Shown: piece after piece, positions 33,052 through 44,216 of the stretch
Layout: every line of letters starts with the position of its first letter
Position numbering within the stretch: position 1 is the stretch's first letter
NCBI RefSeq assembly: GCF_014696315.1
Contig: NZ_JACJPX010000013.1
Location: 1-64,000 of the forward strand
Length of the DNA stretch: 64,000 nt
Origin: Calothrix membranacea FACHB-236
GTDB taxonomy: Bacteria > Cyanobacteriota > Cyanobacteriia > Cyanobacteriales > Nostocaceae
Direction of reading: 5' to 3'
The notes under the pieces: model-generated
Seen by the model: only the letters and a program-made list of their open reading frames with translations
Database searches by the model: none
Told to the model about the DNA's origin: nothing
Position numbers and translations under genes: made by a program

Positions 33052-36000
33052 ATGACCCCGATCGCCAAACCAGAATCATGGGTAAACCTGGAGCAAGAAG
33101 GTTTATTAAGCCGTATTACAGACCGTATTCGTCGCACGTTGGATTTGGAAGATATTCTCACAACGACAACGACGGAGGTGCGATCGCTGCTGGATACTGA
33201 TAGGGTAATGATTTACAAGTTTCATAGCGATGGTAGTGGTCAGGTCATTGCTGAATCAATTTATAACCACAGGCTACCATCACTGTTAGGGCTAAATTTT
33301 CCGGCGGATGATATACCCCTTTATGCTAGAGAACTGTTTGTGAAGTCACGAGTGCGTTCAATTGTTGATGTAGATAAACAGCAAATTGGCCACAGTTTCC
33401 TTAACAGTTTGGAAACAGGAGAAAACATTGCAGAGGAAATATATTATCGCAATGTAGACCCTTGCCATATTAAATATTTAACAGCGATGGGAGTTCAGTC
33501 TTCTCTAGTAGCACCAATTTTGCATCAAGATCAACTTTGGGGTTTGCTAGTGTCACATCACTCCGAAAGCTTTGTGGTTGGCGACCAGGAACTAGAAGCT
33601 GTACAGATGGTAGTAGATCAATTATCAGTAGCGATCGCTCAAAGTAATCTCCTCACCCAAGCCCATAACAAAGCCGAACGAGAAGCTACTATTAACCGCA
33701 TTGCAACTTTACTGCATTCATTGCCCACAATTGTACTGCAACCCGCTTTAGAAGCTACTGTTGCTGCCTTTGGTGGCTCTGGTGGGAGGCTTTGTATTAG
33801 ACATCATGCTTTTAATTTCCAGAATAGTAGCTTTAAGCCCTTAAGAGAATGTTTAATCCCAGGAAGTGACTGTATCAGGCTTTATATTTGCGGAAACCAA
33901 CCTGTGATGCCAGAACCAAATGTGTATCCACTCATAGAGCAATATAATGTCTGGCAAGAACATTATGCATCTGGAAAATATGATGTCTGGGCAATTTCAG
34001 ACATATACCAAACGCCTCATCTACTAACTGTACAAGCTGCTTTTCAGCCTACAAAAGTTCGCAGTATTTTGATGATTCCACTAGAGTATCGTCAAGAATT
34101 AGTAGGTTATTTGAGTATTTTTCGCGATGAAATAGATACAGAAACCTTATGGGCGGGAAGATTCGATCCCGATCAAAGACAAATTTATCCTCGTTTATCT
34201 TTTGATGTCTGGCGCGAAACTAAAACAGCACAAGTAAAAAAATGGACTGTTGAAGAAATAGAAATGGCCAGAGAGATTGGTAAACATTTTGCTTCAGCAA
34301 TTCAGCAGTATGAACTATACCAGCAGGTAGAAGCTTTCAATAGTAGCTTAGAAAAACAAGTTAGAAAGCGCACAGTTGAACTGAAAAAAGCATCGGAACA
34401 ACAACAGACCGTATTTGGTGTGATTGCCAAAATTCGCGAGTCTCTTGATACTAAAACTATTTTTCAAATTACTACTAAAGAAGTTTGCCAATTAATTAAA
34501 GCAGATCGTGTTTCTATTTATCGCTTTGATGCTGATTGGGGTGGTGAATTTGTTGGTGATTTTGAAGTTTATAGTCCACACTGGTCAAATACTTCCAAAC
34601 TGGGAGTAAATACAATTTGGAATGATACTTACTTACAAGATACCCAGGGAGGACGCTACCGCTTCAACGAAACATTTGCGGTAGATAACATTTACCAACG
34701 GGGTTTTACTCAGTGTCATGTTGACAATTTAGAAGAGTATCAAATTCAAGCTTTTGTACTTGCACCTATCTTTTTAGGACAAAAACTTTGGGGTTTACTA
34801 GCGACTTATCAACATTCTGGCCCTCGTCAATGGCTGGACTCGGAAGTGAACTTTCTCAGTCAGATTGCAGCTCAACTAGGGGTAGCACTCCAACAAGCTG
34901 AGTTACTTACACAAACCCAGCAACAAGCAATAGTTTTGCGACAAGCCGCAGAGCAACAACGGGTATTGTTTGAAGTTGTCACAAAAATCCGCGAATCTCT
35001 TGACTTAAATGCCATTTTCCAAACGGCGACTCAAGAGATTTGTCAATCGCTGCAAACAGATCGGGTAGCTGTTTACCAATTTCTCCCAGATTGGAGTGGT
35101 GAGTTTATTGCTGAGTTTGTTGTTGCAGGTTGGGAAAAGCTGGTAGGTGGAACAATCAACTCATTTTGGCAAGATACTTATTTGCAAGAAACCGAAGGTG
35201 GACGATATCGCCACAATGAAACCTTTGCAGTCAATGACATCTATCAGGTAGGGCATAGTGAATGTCATATTGAGTGTTTAGAGCGATATCAAGTTAAAGC
35301 CTATGCGATCGCACCTATCTTTATTGGGCAAAAACTTTGGGGTTTGCTAGCGGCTTATCAAAACTCTGCACCGCGCCGTTGGGAAATCTCAGAAATTCAA
35401 TTTTTAGCTCAAATTGCTAATCAGCTTGGGGTAGCACTGCAACAAGTTGATTTACTCTTGCAAACTCAGCAGCAAACAGAACAGCTAACTCAAGCCCTTC
35501 ACGAGTTACAAGAAACCCAAACCCAACTCATTCAAACTGAGAAGATGTCCTCACTAGGACAACTAGTTGCAGGTATTGCCCATGAAATTAATAATCCTGT
35601 CAACTTTATTTCTGGTAACCTGCTCCACGTCAGCCAATATGCTGAAGATTTACTCAGTATGTTGCAACTCTATCAACAGCAAGTCTCAAATCTTAGCCCT
35701 GATATGCAGGAGATGGCAGAACAGATTGATTTAGAATTTATCACAGCAGATTTGCCTAAAACTCTCTCTTCTATGAAAGTAGGGATTGATCGCATCCGGC
35801 AAATTGTCTTAGGTTTAAGGAATTTCTCTCGTCTCGATGAGGCGGAAATGAAAGCGGTTAATATTCATGAGGGTATTGATAATACCCTGCTAATTTTGCA
35901 ACATCGCCTGAAAGCAAAACCAGATAGCCCCAGTATTGAGATAGTAAAGGATTACGGCGATCTGCCTTTAGTAGAGTGTTACGCCGGACAATTGAATCAA

Positions 36001-36393
36001 GTATTTATGAATGTCTTGAGCAATGCGATCGATGCTCTAGAGGATCAAAGTGAGCCTAAGTCTATATCTAAACCTGATAAGGGTCTAATTACACTCCACA
36101 CTTCTATGGGAGAAATGAAGGGCAATATTAAGAGTGTGGTAATTCGCATTGTGGACAATGGCCCTGGAATCCCAGAAGCTTTGCGATCGCGAATCTGTGA
36201 TCCATTTTTTACTACTAAGCCAGTTGGTAAGGGTACTGGTTTAGGCTTATCAATTAGTTACAAAATTATTGTAGATAAACATGGTGGAATATTTAATTGT
36301 GAATCTCAGCCAGGGTTAGGTACAGAATTTTGGATAGAGATTCCTATTTATCAAAATAGACATCAGTCTAAAATACTAATTACTGATAATTAG
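33052..36393 (+). CDS. Multi-GAF photoreceptor-type histidine kinase
   Basis: 1113 residues, no receiver. Four GAF-like domains are seen: about 20-205, 215-425, 450-625 and 635-805. Three of them contain a Cys-His pair at the position of cyanobacteriochrome bilin attachment: C138-H139, C555-H556 and C738-H739, in the C-H-[IV]-x-x-L-x-x-[YM] context. The second GAF is divergent and has no such pair. Dimerisation helix and HisKA follow (His844 in A-H-E-I-N-N-P), then an HATPase domain with N-box Asn991, D1035-N-G-P-G and G-K-G-T-G-L-G-L. It probably binds phycocyanobilin and reads light. No signal peptide or membrane segment, so cytoplasmic. Confidence 0.9.
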
Positions 36394-36709: not shown

Positions 36710-37867
36710 TTAATTTCTCAACTGCACAGGCATGGCTAAATAGGTCATTTTCAAACCACCCAGTGGTGTAAAAATTACTGGGGTTAAGCTTTGATTGAGA
36801 TGCATTTGCACTTCGGAAGCAGGTAATTCTTTCAAGCCTTCCATGAGATATTTGATATTAAAGGCAATATCTATATTTTCGCCGGATATCTGTGCTGGCA
36901 TTGATTCTCTACCGCTACCTACATCTTGAGCTTCACAAGATAAAGTAATTTCTTGCTGAGAGCTATCAATGCTAACTTTGACAATATTATTCTTTTGATC
37001 GGCTAATACAGCAATTCGCTCTAATGTACTCAAGAATTGTCGCCGATCAATAGTGACTTGTCGCTCAAATTGCCGCGGTATTAGTTGACGATAAGCTGGA
37101 TATTGGCCTTCTAAAGTGCGGCTAGTGAGGCGTTGATTTTTCCAAGCAAACACCACCTGACCCTGATCCAAATATAAAGCCACAGGCTCATCCTCAGAGG
37201 AACTATGAGGTAACATCCGCTGGAGTTCGCGTAAGGCTCTAGCTGGTACTGTGACTTCTAGCTGACTACTACCTTCAATTGGACGTTCATTAGTAGTTTC
37301 TACTACAGCTAAACGGTGTCCATCAGTGGCAGCGAATTCTAAGGTATCTTGTTTAACTGTCAGATGAACTCCGGTGAGTACTTGCTTAGTTTCATCTCCA
37401 CTGGTAGCAAACAATGAACCTTTTAATCCCTCAATTAATGCCGCAGCAGTTAATTGCAGTGGTTCAGCATCTTCAATTATCGGTAATTCGGGAAACTCTT
37501 CCGCCCCCATTGCCCGTACTTGGTAATGTCCACTCTTGGGTGTGAGTGTCATAATTAAACCTTCTCCGCCAGCGGTTGCGGTTGCTGACTCATCGTCTAG
37601 AGTAATTTCTCCTTCTGGAAGACGAGAGGTGATGTCTACCAAGATTTTGGCAGGAAGTGCGATCGCTCCCCCTTCCCATACCTCAGCATTAAAGCTAGTG
37701 CGGATACCCAAGCTGAGATCGAAGGCGGTTAAGCTTACTTGGTTAGTTTGTGCATCTGCTTGTAGCAGTACATTAGCAAGTATGGGATGTGTCGGACGTG
37801 ACGGTACAGCACGGCTGACAAGTGAAAGATTTGTACTAAGGTCGCTTTGGGCGCAAACTAATTTCAT
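36710..37867 (-). CDS. dnaN: DNA polymerase III beta sliding clamp
   Basis: 385 residues, normal length. Typical clamp features: the N-terminal M-K-L-V-C-x-Q-x-x-L start, the segment A-T-D-G-H-R-L-A-V in the middle, and the C-terminal M-P-V-Q-L. It forms the ring-shaped homodimer that holds polymerase III on DNA. It stands alone here, away from dnaA and oriC features; no DnaA boxes were recognised in the flanks. Confidence 0.94.
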   Translation of the reverse strand: MKLVCAQSDLSTNLSLVSRAVPSRPTHPILANVLLQADAQTNQVSLTAFDLSLGIRTSFNAEVWEGGAIALPAKILVDITSRLPEGEITLDDESATATAGGEGLIMTLTPKSGHYQVRAMGAEEFPELPIIEDAEPLQLTAAALIEGLKGSLFATSGDETKQVLTGVHLTVKQDTLEFAATDGHRLAVVETTNERPIEGSSQLEVTVPARALRELQRMLPHSSSEDEPVALYLDQGQVVFAWKNQRLTSRTLEGQYPAYRQLIPRQFERQVTIDRRQFLSTLERIAVLADQKNNIVKVSIDSSQQEITLSCEAQDVGSGRESMPAQISGENIDIAFNIKYLMEGLKELPASEVQMHLNQSLTPVIFTPLGGLKMTYLAMPVQLRN

Positions 37868-38104
37868 GGTCAGATTCAGCTTGTGAGTGTCTATAGTAGC
37901 ACTCTAGAAATATTTTTAGTACATTGTTACCAAGCAACTTTGATTGCCAAGCTTCAAGATTCCCCAGCCACGGCAGTCAACCTATTTGCTTTCTAGTAGA
38001 TGTGGAGAAACAACTTAAAACCGTCCCTGACTGGCAAGAACGGCAAGCGATAAATTATTTATCAGTTAATCAAATAATTAGACAAATACTACAGCGCGGG
38101 TAGT

Positions 38105-38596
38105 TTACGCAGGAATAACTTGAGCAATCAGCGAACGTTTATCGAGTGATTGAACTTTACCTACTTCGCTCAAATCGCTAACAATGCGTTCTAGTAGTTC
38201 TCCCGCCTTGTCACGATATTGATTTTCTCGGCCTCGTAAACGAATGGCAAACTTCACTGAATCGCCTTTACTCAACCACAAAAGTGCTTGTTGAATGCGT
38301 AAGTTGTAGTCAGCTACACCAACGTTTGGCCGTAGCCGGACTTCCTTTACTGTCGGTCTAGCACTCTGTCCCTGACGCTTTTTCTTTTGATACTGAAGCT
38401 TGCCATAGTTAAGAATTTTTGCAACTGGAGCGTCTTTGCCTTCTGAAACTAGAACTAGGTCAAGCTCTACGCTCTGCGCTAATTGTAGAGCTTCGTAGGT
38501 ATCTGTTAAACCACGATTGTTATTTTCATGGTCAATCAAGAAGACTTGAGGTGCCTTGATTTGGGAGTTAATTAGTTGTTTTTGGACTACGATAAT
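38105..38596 (-). CDS. infC: Translation initiation factor IF-3 paralogue, AUU start
   Basis: 163 residues if initiated at ATT 38596. The start is 4 bases after a GAGAGGA Shine-Dalgarno, in frame, and the first residues (IVVQKQLINSQIKAPQVFLI) match the IF-3 N-terminal helix and domain. The usual annotated start at TTG 38539 would lose that domain. AUU at infC is the classic autoregulated rare start. The protein is divergent from the standard cyanobacterial IF-3, and the body (LNYGKLQYQKKK, R-P-T-V-K-E-V-R-L-R) is clearly IF-3, so it is probably a second copy. It checks initiator tRNA and separates ribosomal subunits. Confidence 0.85.
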   Translation of the reverse strand: MIVVQKQLINSQIKAPQVFLIDHENNNRGLTDTYEALQLAQSVELDLVLVSEGKDAPVAKILNYGKLQYQKKKRQGQSARPTVKEVRLRPNVGVADYNLRIQQALLWLSKGDSVKFAIRLRGRENQYRDKAGELLERIVSDLSEVGKVQSLDKRSLIAQVIPA

Positions 38597-38767
38597 GATT
38601 TCCTCTCAATTGTTCAATACTTTGCAAGTGCAAGTACTGCTAATGTAACACAACCTCGATAGGAACTAAGATGTGGTAAACCCATACTTTATTACTTGGT
38701 TACATAACCACACATATCAATGTGTAGATTTTCTCTCAGTTTACACAAAACTTCACCTATAGCCCGT

Positions 38768-40261
38768 TCAAGGTAACCAATGTGGATCAAATCCGTTGAG
38801 GGGAAGCTTTTCTGGCTTGATATCAGCAGTAGTAGTGTCAGCGATTGGCAATAACGGCATTAACCACAAGTCACTAGTTGCGATCGCTTCGCCATCATCT
38901 GTTTTTAAAGTATTGCCTGATAATGGTGCATTAACTTCCTGTGCTACTACTTGGTCAAATAATAACCCTAAACCATCAGGTGATAAATTCATGTGCACAT
39001 TTCGCTGGGCGATGGGCAACACTAATAAGGGTTTTTGTTGTGCAGTTTTTAGATCTATTGCTACTACATAAGGTTGTTCTATGTATTCTTCTTTTGACAC
39101 TAACTGTGTTAGTAAGCAATAGAGGGTTGGGGAAGAGGGATCAAATTGGCAATTGAGGATTGAACCTGTGGTTTTCAACAAGGGTTTTTGAGTACCTTGG
39201 TTCGTTACTAAAAATAAATCTCTGGTGTAATCTGTATTGAATTTGACCATTGCTGCTTGCGAGCCATCTTTCGAGAAAGCCTGAACTAACCCAAACTGGG
39301 GTAAAAAATCTAAAGGTTTGCTGGCATCCCCCTCTAGAGGTAAAATTGCGGCTCCTGCTCCTTGAGCAACGGCGACAGCTTTACTATCAGGGGTAATCAT
39401 AAAGTCTCCCCCAGGCTGGCTTTTTAGGGGTTTAGCAATGGGTTTTTCACCAGATTCGCTGCTTGTTGGCATTACCCACAGCCCAAATTCGCCGGGATTA
39501 GATTTGTTTCCACGCTGGATGACAATGGTTTCTCCATCTGGAGACAAGTCAAATTTGAGGTTTTGATAAGTTTTATTATCTAAAACTAAGTCAACTCGGC
39601 CTGGGGATTGTGCTTCTTGATCGGTTTGGCTAGCAATTCCCGTTGTAACTGTGTAAAGTTGAGCCGAAAGTAAATCTTGGTCATTGGTAGTGCGAGCCGA
39701 AAAGACAATTTTCTCCCCATTGGGAAATGGCTCAAAGTCCATGACAACTAAATCTTGGGGTGTCAGTATCTTTTTTTGCTCTTGGGTTAAGTTGTAGAGA
39801 ACTAACCGGCCTTTTTCTTCAGGATTAACTCCTATATAAAGAATGGCGCGATCGCGGGTACGAAAGCTGCCTGTAAATGGTTGGACTAATCTGGTTGTAC
39901 TTTCTAGTGGCGCAAATTTATCTTTTGCTCCTTGCAATTGGACTTTATAATTTGTGCCATAGGGCGCTGGTGTTAAAAGTGTATAAACCATCCGTCGCCC
40001 AGCCCAGCTTACTTTCCCAGCTAGAGGCGGCTCAATTTTTAAGTTATCCTCTACAGTTTTAGCATCCATTGGGCGGCTAAATGTGAGGGTAAAGGATACA
40101 TCTTCTGACCCAATTTGCTGATTCTGCCAAGTAAAATTTCTGACTCTTGGCTTTACGGCATCACCTTGCCAGATGATTAACCCAATTAGCAAACTCAGCA
40201 GCAGTATCAATGCGATCGCTACCCGATCAAGTGGTTGAATGAATGCTTTGGATGTATTCAT
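38768..40261 (-). CDS. Membrane-anchored Ig-like / beta-propeller protein
   Basis: 497 residues. An N-terminal anchor (about 13-30) is followed by a domain starting S-F-T-L-T-F-S-R-P-M-D, the mark of SbsA_Ig-like (bacterial Ig) domains. The rest shows repeated strands of the type L-S-P-D-G-x-x-I/L typical of TolB/WD40-like PD40 propellers. The protein should face the periplasm. Function unknown. Runs antiparallel to dnaN's left neighbours; the same-strand gene at 40361 lies 100 bases upstream of it, so co-transcription is possible. Confidence 0.75.
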   Translation of the reverse strand: MNTSKAFIQPLDRVAIALILLLSLLIGLIIWQGDAVKPRVRNFTWQNQQIGSEDVSFTLTFSRPMDAKTVEDNLKIEPPLAGKVSWAGRRMVYTLLTPAPYGTNYKVQLQGAKDKFAPLESTTRLVQPFTGSFRTRDRAILYIGVNPEEKGRLVLYNLTQEQKKILTPQDLVVMDFEPFPNGEKIVFSARTTNDQDLLSAQLYTVTTGIASQTDQEAQSPGRVDLVLDNKTYQNLKFDLSPDGETIVIQRGNKSNPGEFGLWVMPTSSESGEKPIAKPLKSQPGGDFMITPDSKAVAVAQGAGAAILPLEGDASKPLDFLPQFGLVQAFSKDGSQAAMVKFNTDYTRDLFLVTNQGTQKPLLKTTGSILNCQFDPSSPTLYCLLTQLVSKEEYIEQPYVVAIDLKTAQQKPLLVLPIAQRNVHMNLSPDGLGLLFDQVVAQEVNAPLSGNTLKTDDGEAIATSDLWLMPLLPIADTTTADIKPEKLPLNGFDPHWLP

Positions 40262-42857: not shown

Positions 42858-44216
42858 GTGCCACAAAATTTCAATAGCCAAATCTCAGCACCATTTGTAA
42901 CTCAAGGTAGCGATCGCGATCTCGATTTAGAGTCTACCCTCAAGGATCTGTCAATGTATGACTTCCAAGTGGATATTAGCTGTATGTCTGTGGAAGTTGC
43001 TCAGTTTTTTGAAAAAAACCCTTTGCTCCCAGGAGCTATCTTACTAGAAGCAGGAAAGTTCATCGGGATGATTTCGCGGCGGCGACTGCTGGAATTTTGG
43101 ATTCATCCCCAAGCACAAGAATTGTTTTTGCAGCAACCGTTAAGTATTCTCTACAGTTATGCCCGTACCACAATTTTACAATTGCCTGATACAACGCCGA
43201 TTTTAACAGCGATGCAACTTACTTTAAGGCGATCGCCTGATCTCTTGGCAGAACCATTGGTGGTACAAATCGCACCTGATACTTATAAATTATTAGATGT
43301 ACATGAATTAAATCTGGCTGCTTGGCAAATTCGCGGTATAGAAACTCAAGTACGCTATGAACGTAGCCAAACTCAAATGATTCAAATTGATAAAATGGCG
43401 AGTTTGGGGCGTTTAGTTGATGGTGTAGCCCACGAAATTTTAGACCCTGTCAGTTTTATTTGGGGTAACTTAACTTATGTTTCTAATTATAGTCAAGATT
43501 TGCTTAAACTCATAGCCGCTTATGACCAAGAATTATCTCCTACTCCCAATTATATTAATCATCTCAAAGAAGAAATTGAATTTGATTTTTTAGAAGAAGA
43601 TTTATCTAAATCACTGGCTAGTATACGCACTGGAGCCGAAAGATTAAAGAAACTAGTTACTAGCTTACAAAACTTCTGCCATATTGATGAAGTTTATCCT
43701 AAGCCAGGGGATTTACACGCCTGTTTAGATAGTATTGTTTTATTAATTAATAGCCGGATTCATGGCGAAATCCAAATAGTGAAAAACTATGGACATTTGC
43801 CGCCAGTTTATTGCTTTATGGGGCAATTAAGTCAAGTATTTATGAATATTTTTAGTGAATCTATAGATACCTTACTCAATGAAACAGTGCGGCAGCAGTT
43901 TCATCCCGAAACAACTAAAAGTAATGACAAACCACAGATAGAAATTACTACCAAGGTGATCACACAGGAAGCAACTAAACCAGGCTGTCCGGATTCTCGT
44001 TGGGTTTCAATTTCTATTGCGGATAATGGCCCTGGGATGTCTCCCAAATTGCAACAGCAAATAATTGATTCTTTTTCAATAGAAAAACGCGCTGATAAAG
44101 CCACTAGTTTAGCTGTCAGCTATCGAATTATTACTTCTAAACATGGAGGAAAATTAAATTTTCATTCCCAAATCGGACAGGGTACAGAATTTCAAGTATT
44201 GCTACCCTTACTTTAA
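42858..44216 (+). CDS. Degenerate histidine kinase-like protein
   Basis: 452 residues from GTG. The N-terminal half (1-165) includes a CBS-like segment (L-L-P-G-A-I-L-L-E-A-G-K-F-I-G-M-I-S). The DHp helix has the phospho-accepting His192 (A-H-E-I-L-D-P). In the ATPase domain the N-box Asn is replaced by Glu334 (F-S-E-S-I-D), the G2 box G-K-G-T-G-L-G-L is reduced to A-D-K-A-T-S-L-A-V (412-420), and the F-box is D-S-F-S-I-E-K. Only D389-N-G-P-G remains. ATP binding is therefore doubtful; it may work as a scaffold or phosphatase-like partner. The domain layout resembles the histidine kinase at 33052. Confidence 0.8.
   Translation: MPQNFNSQISAPFVTQGSDRDLDLESTLKDLSMYDFQVDISCMSVEVAQFFEKNPLLPGAILLEAGKFIGMISRRRLLEFWIHPQAQELFLQQPLSILYSYARTTILQLPDTTPILTAMQLTLRRSPDLLAEPLVVQIAPDTYKLLDVHELNLAAWQIRGIETQVRYERSQTQMIQIDKMASLGRLVDGVAHEILDPVSFIWGNLTYVSNYSQDLLKLIAAYDQELSPTPNYINHLKEEIEFDFLEEDLSKSLASIRTGAERLKKLVTSLQNFCHIDEVYPKPGDLHACLDSIVLLINSRIHGEIQIVKNYGHLPPVYCFMGQLSQVFMNIFSESIDTLLNETVRQQFHPETTKSNDKPQIEITTKVITQEATKPGCPDSRWVSISIADNGPGMSPKLQQQIIDSFSIEKRADKATSLAVSYRIITSKHGGKLNFHSQIGQGTEFQVLLPLL

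Follow-up and report, generated by a model that had tools for sequence, protein, structure and literature searches.

A second, diverged translation initiation factor IF3 of cyanobacteria with a conserved AUC, AUU or AUA start codon

The window analyzed here, a stretch of 64,000 nucleotides from Calothrix membranacea FACHB-236, encodes on its minus strand a second translation initiation factor IF3, which we call IF3b. Its reading frame starts at AUC, and an AUC, AUU or AUA codon (AUH) occupies the same place in every relative compared from across the class (Table 1). We consider it probable, at roughly 65%, that the IF3b mRNA is started at AUH, repressed by IF3 proofreading and made when IF3 is scarce, and that its product serves as an extra or alternative IF3.

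In a profile search, the minus-strand frame ending at 38105 proved to be a complete IF3, matching TIGR00168 with 131.6 bits against a curated cut-off of 60. Both PF05198 (IF3_N) and PF00707 (IF3_C) scored above their cut-offs in the protein, and the two domains and the linker were all found, in keeping with its TIGR00168 membership. The canonical infC of the same genome has an ATG start and lies on another contig (G000:C13); its product shares 42.4% identity with IF3b over 151 aa. An earlier note on this DNA had taken the frame for a second, diverged IF3, and this was borne out, the presence of the other infC excluding a genome that has none besides the window gene. Two IF3 matches were also found in all eight genomes of the genus that were examined, the source genome among them. 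An AlphaFold model of IF3b was weak (mean pLDDT 67.9, pTM 0.48), with a confident C-terminal half and an N-terminal half that was not.

Table 1. Positions of IF3b and neighboring features in the window (members, non-identical IF3b sequences)
Feature	Position	Strand	Evidence or remark
IF3b coding sequence, 162 aa from AUC to stop	38105..38593	-	TIGR00168; both Pfam domains; start from 207 relatives and 9 more
IF3 N-terminal domain, PF05198	38372..38572	-	R25 to F, Q33 to N, R66 to K (E. coli numbering)
IF3 C-terminal domain, PF00707	38144..38353	-	R131, R133, E134, R147 and R168 equivalents kept; R112 and R116 replaced
Start codon ATC (AUC), 8 nt after the GG of GAGAGG	38591..38593	-	ATC, ATT or ATA in 207/207 non-identical members
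U at -1 before the start codon	38594	-	T 186, C 14, A 7, G 0 (207 members)
ATT proposed earlier as start; not conserved	38594..38596	-	AUN in 88/207
Shine-Dalgarno (SD) GAGAGGA	38601..38607	-	GAG at codon -4 in 83/92 Nostocales-like members
TTG, first standard start codon, read as internal Leu	38537..38539	-	no SD before it
Conserved upstream block TTGTGTTACATTAG	38640..38653	-	largely conserved in 20 Nostocales loci aligned
Terminator-like hairpin and T-run behind the gene	38020..38044	-	consensus match only

The first ATG, GTG or TTG of the frame is TTG 38539, as had been stated before, and the protein does continue upstream of it: the IF3_N match scored 77.9 bits and began at profile position 1 when the upstream residues were included, versus 59.6 bits and position 13 from TTG 38539. 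The earlier note had placed the start at ATT 38596, four bases behind GAGAGGA at 38607-38601. Although the SD lies exactly there, the ATT codon varied (ATT, GTT, CTT, ACT or CTC) in 80 loci from named genomes, out of the 135 relatives found, while the next codon, at 38593-38591, was conserved as ATC in 79 and ATA in one. Thus, the idea stands that an SD precedes a non-AUG start of the AUH kind, which is sensitive to IF3, but the codon is AUC 38593 and not AUU.

We then compared 207 non-identical members, the window's included; for this set, 88 further places with divergent relatives were fetched, two partial sequences were excluded and seven identical members were removed. The start column held ATC in 171 members, ATT in 29 and ATA in seven, and ATG, GTG or TTG in none of the 207; among the 92 Nostocales-like members, ATC was found in 91 and ATA in one. 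Because AGGA can pair in two registers, the tally was based on the aligned SD. A mechanical rule, by which the start was the codon in frame at 6-10 nt from the aligned SD, gave AUH in 200 of 207, and the final 207/207 was reached after 10 picks had been moved by hand upon reading. Among 25 later loci, 15 had already been counted, one was a canonical-like infC and the other nine were new IF3b genes, all with ATC. Locus L302, a canonical-like second infC, was excluded from the IF3b counts.

In 142 of the 207 members, the stretch from the upstream stop to the conserved N-terminal domain (NTD) contains no ATG, GTG or TTG, and the stop is at most four codons from AUH in 106. Some such codon is present in the remaining 65, which counts against the AUH start; close to AUH, L029 has an ATG two codons before it, L107 and L200 have a GTG three codons before it, and L221 has ATGs eight and nine codons after it. 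In the 92 Nostocales-like members, codons 5, 6, 9, 10 and 11 vary at position 3 only, whereas codons -2 and -5 vary at all positions, and the coding pattern therefore begins at the start. In a FastTree phylogeny of all 207 proteins, built without the first 12 residues, the assigned start codon required 10 changes among ATC, ATT and ATA, compared with 27, 29, 33 and 49 for four nearly invariant Ile columns; a column-based count gave 13 changes instead, since the N-termini are not aligned in one column. Judged from these alignments, AUH conservation is greater than chance would give.

A start at AUU 38596 in this species would agree with the AUU of E. coli infC, and the codon is in frame, 5 nt after GAGAGG. 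However, an AUH start is impossible at this position in 119 of the 207 members, where the codon is otherwise CTT, GTT, CCT, GCT, ACT, ACA or others, and the base before AUU 38596 is C, whereas ATC 38593 has U at -1; we regard this start as very unlikely. Since ATC 38599, ATT 38596 and ATC 38593 share the frame of the window gene, dual starts are possible in this species.

Translation from TTG 38539 would yield the annotated 144-aa protein, in which the NTD lacks its first strand. This form is indeed given in three (two RefSeq and one DDBJ) of the four annotated Nostoc plasmid records that we looked at, the fourth having its start eight codons upstream of AUC. Nevertheless, it is hardly credible as the true start: the window sequence has no SD ahead of TTG 38539, the upstream INxxI residues fit the IF3 profile, and the upstream codons vary synonymously. 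Furthermore, the column holds TTG in 84 of the 92 Nostocales-like members but in just 17 of the 115 divergent ones, with mostly other Leu codons elsewhere. The expectation that annotation misses the N-terminus was thus right for most of the annotated plasmid copies that we looked at, although the loss amounts to 18 residues counted from ATC and not 19.

An SD match of four bases or longer precedes the start in 194 of the 207 members; it is missing in 13, of which 12 have a GAGAG-like sequence. G follows the start codon directly in 173. A U at -1 reportedly pairs with A37 of the initiator tRNA and thereby assists weak starts. One could suppose that AUH is merely a weak start that fixes a low, constant level of the protein with no feedback from IF3, and the AUU of E. 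coli pcnB shows that a non-AUG start can limit expression (cited in PMC1780047, in the excerpt available). GTG, TTG or a poor SD would serve such a purpose equally well, yet AUH alone occurs in the 207 members, the SD and the U at -1 are widely kept, and the gene product is itself an IF3; we find this explanation improbable.

The conserved block about 50 nt before the start is possibly a promoter or leader element. In divergent members (e.g. L144, L151 and L172), a TGTYGARTTY-like stretch was seen by eye to recur just ahead of the SD. The region holds two terminator-like hairpins, against a mean of 0.6 in shuffled sequences, and the one behind IF3b suggests a one-gene transcript. Rfam gave no match in 37800-39000, and no RNA structure hiding the start was seen in 38570-38625 (z 1.11) or 38540-38680 (z -0.04); a small hairpin is present upstream of the IF3b start in the window. 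Synteny was rejected as a clue to function: among loci with enough flank, dnaN adjoins in 3 of 116 and the upstream 497-aa gene in 3 of 117. The gene is flanked in the window by histidine-kinase-like proteins with similar kinase segments (33052-36393 and 42858-44216, both on the plus strand).

Of 388 genomes sampled across the class, 105 carry IF3b, as do 48 of 160 genera (E <= 1e-45). In a tree of 60 representative IF3b and 16 canonical rows, whose root is not fixed and whose split carries a long-branch warning, a branch supported at 100/100, with a stem length of 2.2 changes per column, separated all 60 IF3b rows from the canonical cyanobacterial infC clade. Some genomes have two or three IF3b copies (L035, L039 and L067), with three loci in Nostoc sp. 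FACHB-152, and many genomes of one family (f26) carry a second, more diverged copy. Locus L302 (G665:C356) is a second infC of the canonical type, scoring 206.7 bits with TIGR00168 and 100 bits with the IF3b profile, in a genome that also has an ordinary infC. Six Nostoc plasmid records matched IF3b with 75-84% identity over 44-100% of the protein, while 69 pattern matches on viral contigs included no relative. Several Nostoc plasmids carry IF3b (L234, L235, L236 and L277), one of them typed as conjugative (pNsp_b). AUC was kept in all three plasmid copies that were read and also in copies with unrelated neighborhoods. Taken together, the lack of a fixed neighborhood, the terminator-like hairpin and the AUC of the plasmid copies fit a gene that stands alone and is controlled through its own start codon.

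The start of IF3b is not shared with the canonical infC of the class: ATG, GTG or TTG is available before the NTD in all 33 canonical genes read (11 plus L109 and L110, then 14, then six), versus AUH in 207/207 for IF3b. In other lineages of the phylum, where infC was the only match, 13 of 23 loci have no standard codon before the NTD, and in most of the 23 an AUA, AUC or AUU was seen by eye a few bases after an AGGAG-like SD. In these sister lineages (family f31 and others), the codon is often followed by GCT or GCA, and starts reading ATA-GCT-AAC are frequent (L258, L263-L276 and L112). Their infC encodes the canonical IF3 and is the sole match in those genomes, whereas IF3b is a second copy. 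Since the sister-lineage infC is apparently AUH-started, the AUH start may, with the root of the tree not fixed, have belonged to the single ancestral infC.

An AUH start with an SD across relatives is a feature expected of an autoregulated infC, and the same combination was found in IF3b (207/207 and 9/9 starts; SD in 194/207). E. coli infC, which is autoregulated, likewise has an AUH start, AUU, behind an SD on an IF3 gene; however, it is single and essential, whereas IF3b is a diverged second copy beside an ATG-started canonical gene. Dsg/InfC of Myxococcus xanthus has an AUC start. It can be compared to IF3b as an IF3 with a specialized role but, unlike IF3b, is essential and has a 66-residue C-terminal extension (PMC2129111, in excerpt). 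The infC start codon is ATT in E. coli but ATC in Streptomyces, where the GTC-started sigR is under repression by IF3 (PMC5472188, in part). Streptomyces thus has AUC on an IF3 gene, as IF3b does, with IF3 repression of a non-canonical start demonstrated for sigR (PMC5472188); that gene is the canonical infC, whereas IF3b is a paralog and need not be essential. In Staphylococcus aureus, infC starts at AUA by Ribo-Ret, cvfC1 at AUU and ccpN at AUA, and these AUH starts have an extended SD, like IF3b (PMC13009471, partial text); they belong to the canonical infC and other genes, none of them a second IF3. Two infC copies are tabulated for two cyanobacteria (PMC4971617, from the portion available), and our search of literature titles and abstracts found no description of a non-AUG start on a second IF3 gene of cyanobacteria.

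The data show the two-copy state, the start codon and its conservation across the class, the SD and the U at -1; from them, we infer repression of IF3b by IF3 and binding of IF3b to the 30S subunit. The IF3b mRNA would initiate at AUC 38593 (AUC, AUU or AUA in relatives), and start-codon proofreading, chiefly by the ATG-started canonical IF3, would reject most initiation there, while the SD and the U at -1 would keep the weak AUH codon usable. Initiation is destabilized by IF3 unless the codon is AUG, GUG or UUG (excerpt of PMC5472188); by analogy, IF3b would be expected at low IF3 activity. Translation of IF3b would rise as the free IF3 activity available to each 30S subunit declines, and the product would then bind to these subunits as an additional or alternative IF3.

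The earlier note had pictured IF3b as self-limiting, which needs IF3b itself to discriminate against AUC. We tabulated the 30S-binding and fidelity residues in E. coli numbering, checked by C65. Mutants of R25, Q33 and R66 reportedly lose fidelity. In the 207 IF3b members, R25 is replaced with F or L in 197, Q33 with N in 201 and R66 with K in 204, R116 is kept in only four, and R112 is mostly replaced. In contrast, 11 canonical proteins compared keep R25 in 11, Q33 in 11, R66 in 10 and R116 in nine. The linker is also shortened, with 16 residues in 148 of 152 IF3b members in which it could be measured (55 further members were unmeasurable), versus 20 in all 16 canonical-type rows and E. coli. 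On the other hand, Y75, R131, R133 and E134 are present in all 207 members and R147 in 202; position 99 has R in 181 members and G in the other 26, and the R168 equivalent is either R (180) or K (24) in nearly all. With R25, Q33, R66 and R116 mostly lost and the linker shortened, repression by canonical IF3 is the more likely control, over self-limitation by IF3b.

IF3b may proofread poorly, given its replaced residues and short linker. It could then bind 30S subunits, displace canonical IF3 and relax start selection, a self-amplifying switch in favor of its own AUC and other non-AUG starts. The near-universal replacement of the four residues that canonical proteins mostly keep would fit this, as would the 16-residue linker. 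Against it, the invariant Y75, R131, R133 and E134 mean that discrimination may persist, and we consider such amplification unlikely. The IF3 NTD moves with the tRNA elbow and a Tyr75 mutation lowers fidelity (PMC5037330, in part), and a shortened linker leads to incorrect start decoding, as stated in the available section of PMC8266586, which cites Roy 2018 and Ayyub 2017. Whether the circuit gives homeostasis or an amplifying switch depends on proofreading by IF3b, for which the residues point both ways.

A wider scheme is quite doubtful. It would make IF3b a switch of start-codon stringency, silent while canonical IF3 is ample and made when it is limiting; IF3b would take 30S subunits with an NTD blind to the tRNA elbow and a short linker and open a non-AUG program that includes its own mRNA, its AUH start having passed to it from canonical infC. 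We favor IF3b as a reserve or alternative factor under repression by canonical IF3.

The AUH start on a second IF3 suggests restraint of its synthesis by IF3 activity itself. A second IF3 whose start IF3 judges is a natural test of regulated start-codon stringency in bacteria, and cyanobacteria with two IF3s lend themselves to comparison with close relatives that carry a single IF3. The gene also illustrates that annotation can drop 18 residues from proteins of a family spread across the class, and that comparative means can recognize non-AUG starts.
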